23,304 bases of DNA from Candidatus Poribacteria bacterium (GTDB lineage: Bacteria; Poribacteria; DTPJ01; WJIO01). Shown one piece after another: positions 3,717 through 11,264 of the stretch. The notes under the pieces were generated by a model. The model was not told where the DNA came from and ran no database searches. It was given only the letters and a program-made list of their open reading frames with translations. The stretch is from NCBI GenBank assembly GCA_014730235.1, contig WJIO01000225.1:1-23304 (forward strand), given 5' to 3'. How positions within the stretch are numbered: the first letter of the stretch is position 1; every line of letters begins with the position of its first letter. Both the position numbers and the translations under genes were made by a program.

Positions 3717-4913
3717 TTAATTGTTTTTAAAACGCTTATCAGCACTCATAATTAAAATACTCGCCGGCTTTATGGTAAAATCGCCGAATTTATCGTTAAT
3801 TTCGCTTATAGCCTTGTTCAGTCGGCTTTCTTTTTCAAGATCATCCAGCAGGTAAAGCTGTCTCCCGCCTTCGGCCAGGCCTGAGAGGGTTACGCCCAGA
3901 AGCCTTACCGGCTTTGTTAACTCTCCTATGCTTTCCAGTATTTTCAGGCATATATTGTATATTCCCTGCATAGTTTCCATGAAATAGCCCACAGTTTTAC
4001 GCCGGGAAAAGGTGGTGAAATCGCTGTATCTCACGGTTAGGGCAACTGTTTTTGCCGATCTTTTTTTGTCTCTCATTCGGGTGGTAACTCTAAGGCACAG
4101 CATTAGGATGCAGGCCTTTATCAAGTCCATGTCCAGAGTATCAAAGGGCAAGGTGTGATAATGGCCTATGGACTTTTCTTTTCTATGTTCCCAGTAACAG
4201 GGAACTTTAGAATTATCAATTCCGTTTCCCATAAGCCTGAGTATATGGCCACTGAAACCGAAATGGGATTTCAGTAAATCCGGCGGAGCATTGCCCAGGT
4301 CACTGGCTTTGGCTATTCCCATCTGTCTCAGCCTGATACCTGTGCTTTTGCCGATGCCGTGAAGTTTATCAACAGGCAGTTTCTTTAGTATATCCATTAC
4401 TTTCTCCGGATATATAATTACTAGGCCGTCGGGCTTTTCCATATTTGATCCCAATTTTGCCAGAAGTTTGTTGGGTGCAAGACCACATGAACATTTGAGC
4501 TTTGTTTCCCTCTTTATCCTGAGTTTTATTTCCTTCAGCATGTCCTCAGGTGTATTATATTTTTTTATCTTCCGGGTCAGGTCCATAAAGAATTTATCTA
4601 TAGAATACATTTTAACCCTGTCCGTAAAACCGATAAGTATTTCACGTATTTTCAGGGTTGTATATACATATTTTTCCAGATTGTCCGGAACTCTTATTAC
4701 CCCCGGACACAACCGCTTTGCCTGATAGACGGTCATGCCTGTTTTGATACCATACTTCCGGGCATTGTAGCTGGCGGTAACGACAATAGTTCTCTCGCCC
4801 ACGCCGGTTATTATAACAGGTTTACCCCGGATAAACGGGTTGGAGACCTGTTCCACCGAAGCGAAGTACGCGTCCATGTCAAGATGAAGTATAGCCCTTG
4901 AACTATGCCACAT
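3717..4913 (-). CDS. dinB: Y-family DNA polymerase, DinB/Pol IV type, with SIDK instead of SIDE
   Basis: The 398-aa protein has the palm/fingers (LDMDAYFASVEQ at 11-22, Asp12 as metal ligand, Phe17 at the steric-gate position), thumb with helix-hairpin-helix (LHGIGKSTGIRLRQMG near 184-199) and little-finger domain of DinB enzymes, which bypass DNA lesions. The catalytic carboxylate motif, SIDE in Pol IV (Asp103, Glu104), reads YSIDKFFMDL at 103-111. Lys107 is encoded by AAA at 4593-4595, one base from GAA. Everything else looks intact, so this is either a real loss or change of a catalytic metal ligand or a single-base error. Its ATG overlaps the end of the upstream DUF6504-like ORF by 11 nt, implying translational coupling. 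It belongs to an SOS-type block downstream of lexA. Confidence 0.92.
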   Translation of the reverse strand: MWHSSRAILHLDMDAYFASVEQVSNPFIRGKPVIITGVGERTIVVTASYNARKYGIKTGMTVYQAKRLCPGVIRVPDNLEKYVYTTLKIREILIGFTDRVKMYSIDKFFMDLTRKIKKYNTPEDMLKEIKLRIKRETKLKCSCGLAPNKLLAKLGSNMEKPDGLVIIYPEKVMDILKKLPVDKLHGIGKSTGIRLRQMGIAKASDLGNAPPDLLKSHFGFSGHILRLMGNGIDNSKVPCYWEHRKEKSIGHYHTLPFDTLDMDLIKACILMLCLRVTTRMRDKKRSAKTVALTVRYSDFTTFSRRKTVGYFMETMQGIYNICLKILESIGELTKPVRLLGVTLSGLAEGGRQLYLLDDLEKESRLNKAISEINDKFGDFTIKPASILIMSADKRFKNN

Positions 4914-5148
4914 AAAGCTTTTCCAATTGCCAGTTAAAAGACTTCAGGTTGTATGAAATTTCATAAAAAGTCTTTTCGGTTGTAACAGAAAAATGAATTA
5001 TTGGCACCGAGCCTATCTTTGTCCGCCAAAGGTATGTCACTTCTTCTATGGAGTATTTGCGTTTTTTCCATATAAAGAAGCGTGGTATAATTTTTCCAGA
5101 AGAAAAGATAGCCACAACGGAAATGGGTTCTTTTACCAATACATACAT
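4903..5148 (-). CDS. Small DUF6504-like protein translated with dinB
   Basis: This 81-aa protein has a central core with the pattern IPRFFIWKKRKYSIEEV followed by W and a run ending YNLKSFNWQLEKLYVA. It resembles the remembered DUF6504 pattern (P..F.WrgR.y.V..v...W, then Y.L..... .W.L..v) of short proteins found beside imuB/dinB-type polymerases. That assignment is from memory. GGAAGGG 8-9 nt before the ATG supports the start, and its 3' end overlaps dinB by 11 nt. The genetic setting suggests a partner or regulator of the polymerase, but no catalytic motif is visible. Confidence 0.7.
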   Translation of the reverse strand: MYVLVKEPISVVAIFSSGKIIPRFFIWKKRKYSIEEVTYLWRTKIGSVPIIHFSVTTEKTFYEISYNLKSFNWQLEKLYVA

Positions 5149-5288: not shown

Positions 5289-5299
5289 AGAGCCAATCT

Positions 5300-5317
5300 T
5301 TCCTGCTTTCGCAGGAA
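5300..5317 (-). repeat. REP-like palindrome with GAAA tetraloop
   Basis: On the minus strand the sequence is TTCCTGCGAAAGCAGGAA, a 7-bp perfect stem closed by a GAAA loop. The inner 14 bp are identical to 13526-13539. It falls right after the predicted dinB-operon promoter and before the small ORF, so it would be at the 5' end of that mRNA. Confidence 0.6.
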
Positions 5318-5345
5318 TTATAGCAAAGTAGATTCTTCCTGTATA
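5317..5345 (-). promoter_or_regulatory. Predicted promoter for the small ORF-DUF6504-dinB-cobU operon
   Basis: On the minus strand, TATACA (5345-5340) and TATAAT (5322-5317) are 17 bp apart, and the -10 box is preceded by TGC, an extended -10. The -35 overlaps one arm of the inverted repeat 5331-5388. It lacks the lexA-type palindrome found at 6054-6071. Confidence 0.5.
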
Positions 5346-5388
5346 ATTTGTGATTTTTCTTTATTACCAAATTAAATCAGGAAGAATC
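5331..5388. repeat. Inverted repeat between lexA and the dinB operon
   Basis: GATTCTTCCTG (5331-5341) and CAGGAAGAATC (5378-5388) are perfect 11-bp arms. Imperfect similarity continues inward (TATAATTTG against CAAATTA). It begins 7 bp after the lexA stop, so it may act as a lexA terminator, as an operator for the next promoter, or be a remnant of a small palindromic element. Confidence 0.55.
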
Positions 5389-5395
5389 AAGTAAA

Positions 5396-6019
5396 TTATC
5401 CTATCCGGGAGGGATTTACCAGTTGGTAAGAATAATTTCTAAGCATAAATACAACTTTACCCATCATGTTTAGATCATCAGTAAGTTCTTCGTTTGGATA
5501 TTCCCCTTCCAGAGCATTGGCTTGAAGGTATAAGCCATTATCATTTTTTCGAAGCCACCTGATGAAAGCTTCACCGTTTCTGACTACCACTACTAGATCT
5601 CCTGGATCGGCAAACGGTTGTCTACAAACTACCACTATATCCTGATCGTGTATACCCGCCCCGGCCATGCTGCTGCCTTTGACTCTGAGGCCAAAGAGGT
5701 CTTTGCTTGTAGTAAGAATTTTACCTACATCTATATAACCTTCTATATCCTGCTCAGCAATGACTTTGCCTGCGCCGACACGCCCCAAAACCGGTATTTC
5801 GATAAGATGCGGGGACAATTCTATACCTCTGGAAACCTTGTTTTTAATGGTAAGATAACCTTTTCTCTGTAAGATTTTAAGGTGATCCTGGACCGGTCGG
5901 GGTGAGGAAAAACCTAAACCCCTCATAATCTCCCTAACGGTAGGAGGTACAGAGTTATCACGAACAAAATTAATAATAAATTGTAAAACTCTATCTTGTT
6001 TCTCAGTCAGGCTTTTCAT
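5396..6019 (-). CDS. lexA: LexA-type SOS repressor with Arg at the catalytic-Lys position
   Basis: The 207-aa protein has the N-terminal winged helix of LexA (PPTVREIMRGLGFSSPRPVQ at 25-44, then HLKILQRKGYL at 46-56) and a C-terminal S24 self-cleavage domain. The scissile Ala-Gly is in VLGRVGAGK (Ala83-Gly84), and the nucleophile Ser117 is in VKGSSMAGAGI. In E. coli LexA the Lys partner lies 37 residues after the Ser (119 to 156); here the residue 37 after Ser117 is Arg154, in GEAFIRWLRK, codon AGG at 5558-5560. Cleavage may therefore be slow, shifted in pH, or lost. The ATG follows GGGGGTGG. The promoter at 6049-6077 has a palindrome in its spacer, as expected for autoregulation. It precedes the DUF6504-dinB operon on the same strand. 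Confidence 0.92.
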   Translation of the reverse strand: MKSLTEKQDRVLQFIINFVRDNSVPPTVREIMRGLGFSSPRPVQDHLKILQRKGYLTIKNKVSRGIELSPHLIEIPVLGRVGAGKVIAEQDIEGYIDVGKILTTSKDLFGLRVKGSSMAGAGIHDQDIVVVCRQPFADPGDLVVVVRNGEAFIRWLRKNDNGLYLQANALEGEYPNEELTDDLNMMGKVVFMLRNYSYQLVNPSRIG

Positions 6020-6048: not shown

Positions 6049-6077
6049 ATTATACAATACAAATGTATTGTTGTCAA
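6049..6077 (-). promoter_or_regulatory. lexA promoter with palindromic operator filling its spacer
   Basis: On the minus strand a consensus TTGACA (6077-6072), a 17-bp spacer and a consensus TATAAT (6054-6049) are present. The palindrome ACAATACA-AA-TGTATTGT (6054-6071) has perfect 8-bp half-sites and lies exactly between the boxes. It is most likely the LexA operator of this lineage. It resembles neither the E. coli CTGT-N8-ACAG nor the Bacillus GAAC-N4-GTTC box. It is about 130 bp before the divergent response-regulator gene. Confidence 0.8.
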
Positions 6078-8393: not shown

Positions 8394-11264
8394 CTATCGC
8401 AAAATTGTCATTTTTCTTGTTTCTGTAAATTTATCCGTATGAATTGTATAGAAGTAAATTCCGCTTGATACGGATTCACCGGATTGGTTTTTACCATCCC
8501 AGTAAAAGGCCCTGTCTTGGCTTAAGTAGACACCAGCCTTTTTGCGTCCTAAATCGATCTTCCTTATCAGACCGCCGTTTGTGGAATGTATCCAAATTTC
8601 TATGTTGTTATCTTCAGCCAGTTGGTAAGGTATCCATGTTTCCGGGTTGAAGGGATTTGGATAGTTTTGCATCAATACATTTTTCTCCGCTGGTATTGCC
8701 CAGGATTTAAACAATCCATCTTCTTTCACAACTCTTAAAGGAACAGCGTCTTTTCTATAAAGTTCCGCACCACTTATTATAATTGGTGATACATTATCCT
8801 TAAGTATCCGGAACTGGATACTTGCCATAATACTACTTTCTAGAGTATCCATTGACGCAAAAGAAAGCTTGATTAGATCTGATTTGGTAACATTAACGGC
8901 AAAAGTTCCCCTGTTTTCGGATGTTACTCCCAAAACCTGGAGTACAGAGTTATCATAATTTATATTTATGTCACCGCCTGCTATGGATTCAGGATTATCC
9001 ACCATTAGAGGAACATTTATGTTTTGACCTGATACTCCGTAAGCGTGTTTGAGATGTATACCTGTAGACCTTACTATCGGTGATTTAATCTCCCTGACCG
9101 GAGCTTCGAGACCGGCGGATTTTCGCAGTATTAATATCGCATCATTAGACCTGACTTTACCGTCATCGTTCATATCGGCAGCGCATAACTGCTGTGGTGT
9201 GGGATTAATCAATTCGGCAGAAATGCGCAAGGTCAATATAGCATCGTTGGATTTAACAGAGCCGTCGCCGCTTACATCTCCTTTCACGCAGGAATTGGCT
9301 ATCTCCACCTTGCCATTTTCTGTATTTACAGAAATACTCAATCCCTGGGCATTAAAAGCTTCTGCAGTCTGGATGTTTACATAGGCTTCTGCACCCTCGG
9401 AGGTATTGGAATTTACAGCAAACACCATCTCTACCAACGCTCCACTACTGGCAGAAATAGCACTTGTTCCAGCCAGACGAAGGATAATTTTTCCTGGTGT
9501 ATTGGTGTTTGAGACAAGGCTCATACCACTGGATAAAGTTGTGGAACGAGCTTCCGTTATAGTTAGCTTGCTGTTGTCATAAGATATTTCTAAATCCGCA
9601 CCGGCGATGTCTGAACCATTTTCAACGTTCACCGGTAAAACTGCAGAATCTCCTGGTGCTGCGCTGATGGTTGGAATGACAAATTTTCTGGAAGTTCCCG
9701 GATCGGCTCCCGGATCATCCGTAGATACTGTGACAGTGTTGCTTGTGGCAAGAAGGGGATCATAATCGTCATTAGGGAACATGCGGAAATTATATTGTCC
9801 AGGGGTGCTGGGGGCTTTAAAATTAAGGCTTCCGCTTTTATTTCCCTCCAGGTATTGCCATGATATCCATCCCCGGTCATTTGCGTTGACAGAATATATA
9901 CCTATCCAGTCTATAGATGATCCCGGTGCGCCGGTGTAGGATACAGTAATATTCGCTCCGGTTTTTACGCTGGAAGGTGATGCTGTGATCTTAGCATCTT
10001 CCACATCTGGATCGGGATCAGGTTCACTGCCGGGAGTATAGGTGTAATAACCAGTATCAGGGGCATAATCAAAGGAATCATCTGTATGATATGTCCACAC
10101 AACGAAGTCAAAAGTATCCGGATTGCCTATATCAGTCTTACGAATTGTGAATTCAAGGTTTGAACTGTTAGGATTAAAAACTATGTTATGCACTGTGGCA
10201 TCAGTCATTACATAGCCGGAATCCGATGGGCTGTAGGTAAGTAAATAAGCATAAATATCACCATCTAGCAGATAAAATTCCACGTAATATTCAATACCCA
10301 GGTCAGGATCTCCGGTGTTTGGGTTCTGGTCAATATCTATGTCAACATATATCTCCAGCTCATTGGGCCAATTACCATAGGAAGTAATTTTAATCTTTAT
10401 TTCATCTGTATTAGAACCAACATAAACCTGATTTATATTTGCCTGCTGTAAATCATTAGGGTCTGTTCCCATTAGTGAATAGTCACTACCAGGACCAGAA
10501 TCAGGATCGGGATCAGGGTCTGGATCGGGATCTGGATCAGGATCTGGATCGGGATCTGGATCAGAAGGACCGTCATCACTGGGTTTAAAGGAATTCATAA
10601 GATTGATAATTTCATTCTGGCTTAAGGCATTGTTATATATTCTGAATTCGTCAACAGTGGCTTCAAGCATTGGAGAACTTGATCTGTTATCACCACCAAT
10701 ACGGTGAAGGTCGTCAAAGACTATATCACTAGATGCAGTAGTGGTATAGTCTTTATCCAGTTTACCATCCACATACATAAAAAATCCGGGATAGGATACG
10801 TTTCTTACAAAGGCTATATGGTGCCATTTATCATCTCTTAAGTCTGTGTTTCCGCGTATATCCTTTTTACCTCCAGCCCACCATAAACGCATTTTGCCGT
10901 TAGAGTAAATTTCCCAGTTTGAGTTAGGACTATCGTTGTAATTTCCCAGTATTATACCAACCCTTCCTTTAGCATTTGACGGAACTTTTACCCAAAGGGC
11001 TACAGTACTGCTGCCTGTTCCAATGGGGAGTAACTTATTTAGCTGGATATATTCACCTTTTACGGCATTAAAGCGAAGTCCACCATTAACCCATTGTAAA
11101 TTACCATTGATTTCTCCATCAAAACCATTTCCAGATATATCTTTTACAATAGAGCCAACGCCCTCGTTAAATGAATAATAGAGGATTAGTTCGCTGTATG
11201 CTGGTATACTAATTCCCAGAATTATTAAGGTAAATAAAGTTAGTACAATAGATAATTTTTTCAT
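8394..11264 (-). CDS. Secreted LamG / cohesin-dockerin-cohesin protein with C-terminal FlgD-like sorting domain
   Basis: The 956-aa protein starts with a signal peptide (MKKLSIVLTLFTLIILG...AYS, 1-24). Regions in order: LamG/concanavalin-like fold (25-225); an Asp-Pro repeat linker (235-255); a beta-rich domain with Asp-rich loops (265-412); an Ig-like domain (424-514); a cohesin-type domain (526-656); a type I dockerin with two Ca-binding loops, DVSGDGSVKSNDAIL (663-677) and DMNDDGKVRSNDAIL (697-711); a second cohesin-like domain (about 729-850); and a C-terminal domain with NYPNPFNPETWIPYQL and GIYFYT motifs resembling type IX secretion/FlgD-like tails (860-956). It is probably cell-surface or extracellular, binding or organising polysaccharide. 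No catalytic domain is seen. AGGAGG 6 nt before the ATG and a consensus promoter support the start. The tail style is the best lineage clue in the window. Confidence 0.92.
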   Translation of the reverse strand: MKKLSIVLTLFTLIILGISIPAYSELILYYSFNEGVGSIVKDISGNGFDGEINGNLQWVNGGLRFNAVKGEYIQLNKLLPIGTGSSTVALWVKVPSNAKGRVGIILGNYNDSPNSNWEIYSNGKMRLWWAGGKKDIRGNTDLRDDKWHHIAFVRNVSYPGFFMYVDGKLDKDYTTTASSDIVFDDLHRIGGDNRSSSPMLEATVDEFRIYNNALSQNEIINLMNSFKPSDDGPSDPDPDPDPDPDPDPDPDPDPDSGPGSDYSLMGTDPNDLQQANINQVYVGSNTDEIKIKITSYGNWPNELEIYVDIDIDQNPNTGDPDLGIEYYVEFYLLDGDIYAYLLTYSPSDSGYVMTDATVHNIVFNPNSSNLEFTIRKTDIGNPDTFDFVVWTYHTDDSFDYAPDTGYYTYTPGSEPDPDPDVEDAKITASPSSVKTGANITVSYTGAPGSSIDWIGIYSVNANDRGWISWQYLEGNKSGSLNFKAPSTPGQYNFRMFPNDDYDPLLATSNTVTVSTDDPGADPGTSRKFVIPTISAAPGDSAVLPVNVENGSDIAGADLEISYDNSKLTITEARSTTLSSGMSLVSNTNTPGKIILRLAGTSAISASSGALVEMVFAVNSNTSEGAEAYVNIQTAEAFNAQGLSISVNTENGKVEIANSCVKGDVSGDGSVKSNDAILTLRISAELINPTPQQLCAADMNDDGKVRSNDAILILRKSAGLEAPVREIKSPIVRSTGIHLKHAYGVSGQNINVPLMVDNPESIAGGDININYDNSVLQVLGVTSENRGTFAVNVTKSDLIKLSFASMDTLESSIMASIQFRILKDNVSPIIISGAELYRKDAVPLRVVKEDGLFKSWAIPAEKNVLMQNYPNPFNPETWIPYQLAEDNNIEIWIHSTNGGLIRKIDLGRKKAGVYLSQDRAFYWDGKNQSGESVSSGIYFYTIHTDKFTETRKMTILR
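10500..10562 (-). repeat. Hexanucleotide tandem repeat encoding (Asp-Pro)n
   Basis: About ten 6-bp units of the GGATCN type (plus-strand view) encode alternating Asp and Pro at residues 235-255 of the LamG protein. The third bases vary between units. It forms an extended acidic linker and can change in length by slippage in steps of two residues without frameshift. Confidence 0.9.

Follow-up and report, generated by a model that had tools for sequence, protein, structure and literature searches.

LexA is the standard Ser-Lys self-cleaving repressor, and its Lys is nearly invariant. In LexA, as in the S24 peptidases, this Lys in its uncharged form activates a Ser to attack an Ala-Gly bond. The gene lexA2 (5396..6019, minus strand), from a Candidatus Poribacteria genome, encodes a 207-residue LexA paralogue in which the dyad is altered, which raises the question of what a LexA with an Arg in place of this Lys would do, and of whether such a protein is the repressor that governs the SOS response of its cell. 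The window, by which we mean the whole 23,304-nucleotide stretch of DNA that was analysed, corresponds to contig C153; the draft genome to which this contig belongs measures 5.53 Mb and is 91.6% complete, with an estimated contamination of 4.77%. The contig opens within a 23S rRNA gene, after which comes a 5S rRNA gene (1-814), and it also encodes a large secreted protein (8394-11264, minus strand) that carries dockerin-like repeats and, at its C terminus, a NPFNPETWIPYQLAE motif, features typical of Poribacteria.

A LexA paralogue with an altered Ser-Lys dyad

LexA2 scores 150 bits against the TIGR00498 lexA model (cut-off 111) and matches both Pfam LexA domains, the winged-helix DNA-binding domain (PF01726) and the S24 domain (PF00717). 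Alignments with E. coli LexA and with homologues place an intact Ala83-Gly84 scissile bond at 5768..5773 and an intact catalytic Ser117 at 5669..5671, both on the minus strand. The dyad Lys (E. coli Lys156) is replaced by Arg154, encoded by AGG at 5558..5560, and the conserved Thr two residues before it (E. coli Thr154) by Phe152, encoded by TTC at 5564..5566, again on the minus strand. The original prediction, which gave no strand, had named and numbered Ser117, Ala83-Gly84 and Arg154 correctly. Since LexA2 and E. coli LexA align without interruption from the Ser to the dyad position, Arg154 does occupy the Lys156 position, and misalignment is ruled out as the cause of the Arg. Lys158 had been raised as a possible displaced dyad Lys; in the alignment it matches Lys160 of wild-type E. 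coli LexA instead, and therefore there is no displaced dyad Lys.

An AlphaFold (AF2) model of LexA2, with a mean pLDDT of 84.6, indicates that the fold is kept and that the catalytic pocket is changed. In the model, residue 154 lies within strand 150-159; the best structural match is T. maritima LexA (3k2z, Z 16.7), and the structure of the E. coli LexA C-terminal domain is matched at 2.6 A. By descent and predicted fold, LexA2 is a LexA; with Arg154 in place of the dyad Lys, it may not be a self-cleaving one.

The proposal that this region reflects real divergence was supported by comparison with 126 homologues, LexAs and S24 relatives drawn from the phylum itself and from many other bacterial families. 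Lys occupies the dyad column in 124 of them and Arg in none, so that Arg is not a frequent residue here, either within the phylum or among LexAs elsewhere, and the neighbouring Thr, present in 125 of the 126, is also changed in LexA2. The two exceptions at the dyad position are L024, which has a gap, and L075, a UmuD-like protein with Gln; in a second, overlapping set of 121 homologues the column held 120 Lys and one gap. Two sequences, L020 and L021, that seemed to carry Arg in a first pairwise pass proved to be gap artefacts, their open reading frames (ORFs) reading ATVKR and ATLKR. At the 27 positions conserved in at least 85% of homologues, LexA2 departs only three times, from Gly126 to Gln, Thr152 to Phe and Lys154 to Arg, with the latter two both on the catalytic strand. 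Sequencing error is an unlikely source of these changes, because the Phe152 codon is at least two base changes away from every Thr codon and because the polymerase encoded downstream carries an independent change. Among 97 relatives, no orthologue shared these changes, nor was a natural Lys to Arg LexA reported in the literature searched, with most subscription journals falling outside that search.

The homologue L024 (203-778, genome G016 of the same phylum) is a 191-residue LexA that has neither the Ser nor the Lys region nor an Ala-Gly bond; it is the sole match to LexA2 in its genome and is apparently an independent, non-cleavable LexA. Many genomes of genus g3 of this phylum (for example G002, G005 and G010) have no match to LexA2 at all, even where, as for G010, the genome is a single contig, and these genomes may lack LexA.

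Severe impairment or loss of self-cleavage would be the likeliest outcome of the substitutions in LexA2, because Arg is a poor base, because the K156R form of E. coli LexA provides a precedent, and because the flanking Thr is lost. K156R is a laboratory allele employed where an uncleavable, SOS-negative repressor is wanted (PMC5760743); it has the same Lys to Arg change in an otherwise wild-type pocket, whereas in LexA2 the neighbouring Thr is also replaced, by Phe. Natural LexAs without cleavage residues are already known, as in Synechocystis PCC 6803, whose LexA has lost the self-cleavage residues and is thought to be uncleaved (PMC3091678). That protein has other residues at the positions of the scissile Ala and the Ser, both of which LexA2 keeps; in LexA2 it is the Lys and its Thr neighbour that are changed. 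Unlike the Synechocystis protein, LexA2 is an additional LexA in a genome that also encodes a normal one.

The lexA2-imuB-C-polY cassette and the LexA on contig C135

Downstream of lexA2, and on the same strand, lie an 81-residue ORF (4903..5148) and polY (3717..4913), which encodes a DinB-type Y-family polymerase (PF00817, PF11799). The small ORF has a weak Pfam DUF6504 match and a counterpart in the Geobacter cassette, and we refer to it as a standalone ImuB-C, a name taken from the description of a lexA-imuB-C-polY operon with a role in SOS mutagenesis (PMC6511836). That Geobacter-type, GeoPolY-like operon matches the window in its three genes and in their order, with lexA at its head. The order of lexA, small ORF and polymerase recurs on plasmid pSD of Geobacter anodireducens, where the polymerase is 43% and the small ORF 39% identical to those of the window, and at least six further genomes have it as well; the ImuB-C ORF is found in other cassettes too. 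All of the cassettes compared (pSD and at least six genomes) keep both the LexA Lys and the PolY Glu. The window differs from the GeoPolY-like operon in the Arg and Phe of its LexA, in a Lys for the catalytic Glu of PolY, in a dispersed repeat between lexA2 and imuB-C, and in that its genome has another LexA, very probably the one that serves the main SOS genes.

In E. coli DinB, Glu104 holds the metal ions together with D8 and D103 (PMC4564189). The corresponding residue of the window PolY is Lys107 (codon AAA, 4593..4595, minus strand), so that the motif reads SIDK where its relatives have SIDE; in their alignment the position is Glu in 44 sequences out of 46 and Asp in the other 2. A second charge reversal, E101K, lies six residues before Lys107 (4611-4613, minus strand). 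With SIDK, PolY does not have the appearance of an active Y-family polymerase and is probably catalytically impaired. No further Y-family (PF00817) protein was found in the genome, and no matching Y-family protein was found in that of the nearest relative. The genome, at 91.6% completeness, has a single match to the replicative polymerase family PF07733, and therefore no DnaE2 (second DnaE) was detected as a partner for an inactive PolY; an imuA-imuB-dnaE2 mutasome is thus not what the genome presents. Inactive Y-family proteins in mutagenesis cassettes are already known: in lexA2-imuA-imuB-imuC cassettes, a second LexA controls a mutagenesis operon that includes the catalytically inactive Y-family protein ImuB (PMC3901139). 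The window resembles these cassettes in having a second LexA and a Y-family protein with a lost catalytic residue, and it differs from them in lacking imuA and in that no DnaE2 was found in its genome.

The dispersed repeat (5297..5394, minus strand) is about 98 bp long and resembles a small non-coding mobile repeat; some 40 partial copies of it are scattered over the genome, including one on contig C135. Together with a second promoter-like site, it lies in the 247-bp gap between lexA2 and imuB-C. The distance from lexA to polY is about 245-260 bp in most of the cassettes compared, 400-467 bp in two, and 482 bp in the window.

Contig C135 of the same genome encodes another LexA, 41% identical to LexA2, which has the normal Lys in the motif EATVKRF. 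SOS-box-like sites of the type CTTAAC-N4-GTATAG are common to lexA promoters across the phylum, and in this genome they lie before lexA on C135 (CTTAACGTATGTATAG; L001 1146-1161), recA (CTTAACGTTTGTAAAG; L189 1501-1516) and uvrA (CTTAACGTATGTGTAG, 283 bp upstream of the gene; L168 1501-1516), where recA and uvrA were named from their translations and recA also by TIGR02012. Since such boxes precede lexA, recA and uvrA, it is very probably the C135 LexA that controls the main SOS response. The suggestion that LexA2 is the cell's repressor, with impaired cleavage, thus stands only for the impairment, which remains the likeliest outcome given the E. coli K156R precedent; the part that made LexA2 the repressor of the cell meets the second, Lys-bearing LexA on C135. 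Mis-binning of contig C153 is unlikely, as its dispersed repeat recurs some 40 times in the genome, although the assembly is a draft with 4.77% estimated contamination; the copy on C135 ties the two contigs to one genome.

The two LexAs take different places in phylogenetic trees. The C135 LexA groups with that of the nearest relative, a member of the same order, with support of 99/94 (100/97 in a wider tree), and in the wider tree it falls inside the LexA clade of the phylum (100/89), with LexA2 outside. There, LexA2 and most of the cassette LexAs form one loose group with weak support (43/89), and this grouping makes it likely that the cassette was acquired horizontally. A Spirochaetaceae LexA that appeared as a close relative in a first tree (94/88) no longer grouped with LexA2 once sampling was widened. 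The base composition of the cassette is like that of the rest of the window and is therefore of no help for or against import. No match of at least 60% identity to LexA2 was found in plasmids or phages, and its viral relatives come down to one weak locus.

Promoter and candidate operator of lexA2

Upstream of lexA2 lies a promoter, TTGACA-17-TATAAT (6049..6077, minus strand), that agrees with the consensus at 12 of 12 positions. Its spacer is filled by a perfect 18-bp palindrome, ACAATACA-TT-TGTATTGT (6054..6071), which we propose as the lexA2 operator. The layout of the palindrome, xxAC-N4-GTxx, is that of the LexA boxes of the phylum, but the outer bases differ, and its 16-bp core has no other perfect copy in the genome. 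A comparable palindrome occurs in 2-8% of Markov shuffles of the 141 AT-rich bases; on its own, the palindrome is modest evidence, and its exact fit into the promoter spacer is the stronger point. LexA2 probably binds the palindrome at 6054-6071, although its being the only candidate site limits the strength of this prediction. Near-matches to it in the genome numbered 36, compared with 34 for a reversed control, a chance level that does not support further lexA2 targets or a wider regulon. Autoregulation without a wider regulon would be the simplest reading.

Alternative readings of the cassette

The explanation that we favour, and hold to be somewhat better than an even bet, is that LexA2 is an imported, self-repressing paralogue that cleaves itself very poorly or not at all, and that the cassette is uncoupled from the SOS response. 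In this model, the second LexA would have arrived with a lexA-imuB-C-polY SOS mutagenesis cassette. It would still fold, probably dimerise and probably repress its own promoter, while the exchange of the dyad Lys for Arg and of the neighbouring Thr for Phe would have severely impaired or abolished its autoproteolysis. With cleavage impaired, and with the Lys-bearing C135 LexA as the presumed SOS switch of the cell through the boxes at lexA, recA and uvrA, LexA2 would most likely be a near-static autorepressor that sits at its own 18-bp operator and is seldom, if ever, removed by RecA. Expression of the polymerase would then no longer be coupled to DNA damage by the cassette LexA, PolY itself would probably be catalytically impaired by its Glu to Lys change, and the repeat would part lexA2 from imuB-C. 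Against this model, LexA2 still has Ser117 and its scissile bond, which would be expected if cleavage remained important or had been lost only recently, E. coli K156R keeps some activity at very high pH, the deep branch that unites LexA2 with cassette LexAs has weak support, and ongoing gene loss would produce many of the same signs.

Such gene loss is the substance of the main rival, to which we assign an appreciable probability, though one well below that of the favoured model. Here the whole cassette would be decaying, with lexA2 and polY as early-stage pseudogenes and the catalytic changes as neutral, functionless damage. Both LexA2 and PolY have lost a catalytic residue, PolY has the second charge reversal nearby, a repeat has inserted between lexA2 and imuB-C, and none of the 97 relatives holds an orthologue with the same changes, all of which would be expected of decay. 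However, the three ORFs are uninterrupted, the 12/12 promoter still holds a perfect 18-bp palindrome, and the departures of LexA2 at conserved positions are just 3 of 27, with two of them in one pocket. In our view, the flawless promoter and operator, together with the narrow range of LexA changes, speak for retained DNA binding. The cassette is probably governed by an uncuttable self-repressor, or is decaying.

It is unlikely, in our estimation, that the imported cassette is now a stable module outside the SOS response, in which a Ser-Arg autorepressor, uncleavable or cleavable only in trans, would be combined with a dead PolY acting as an ImuB-like structural partner. We are a shade more doubtful that LexA2 is a working switch, its Ser-Arg dyad cutting Ala83-Gly84 slowly or at high pH, so that derepression would be delayed and would come only under heavy damage. 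The E. coli K156R protein is not fully dead and shows some cleavage at very high pH, and the Ser, the scissile bond and the fold of LexA2 are intact. However, K156R serves as an SOS-negative allele (PMC5760743), the paired Thr to Phe change is unlike tuning, and Arg occurs in none of the 126 homologues. Least probable of all, and by our estimate very improbable, is that LexA2 is a substrate only, cleaved in trans by the canonical, Lys-bearing LexA, which would make the cassette subordinate to the main SOS switch. In E. coli, LexA domains are known to cleave one another in trans, the scissile bond of LexA2 is kept and the two LexAs are 41% identical, yet a protein of this kind would have no need for the Ser117 that has been kept.

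A natural Ser-Arg LexA beside an intact paralogue offers a ready test of how far the dyad can drift when the SOS response is in the charge of a different LexA, and likewise of the fate of imported mutagenesis cassettes. A lexA-polY operon in a genome is not by itself proof of damage-inducible mutagenesis.
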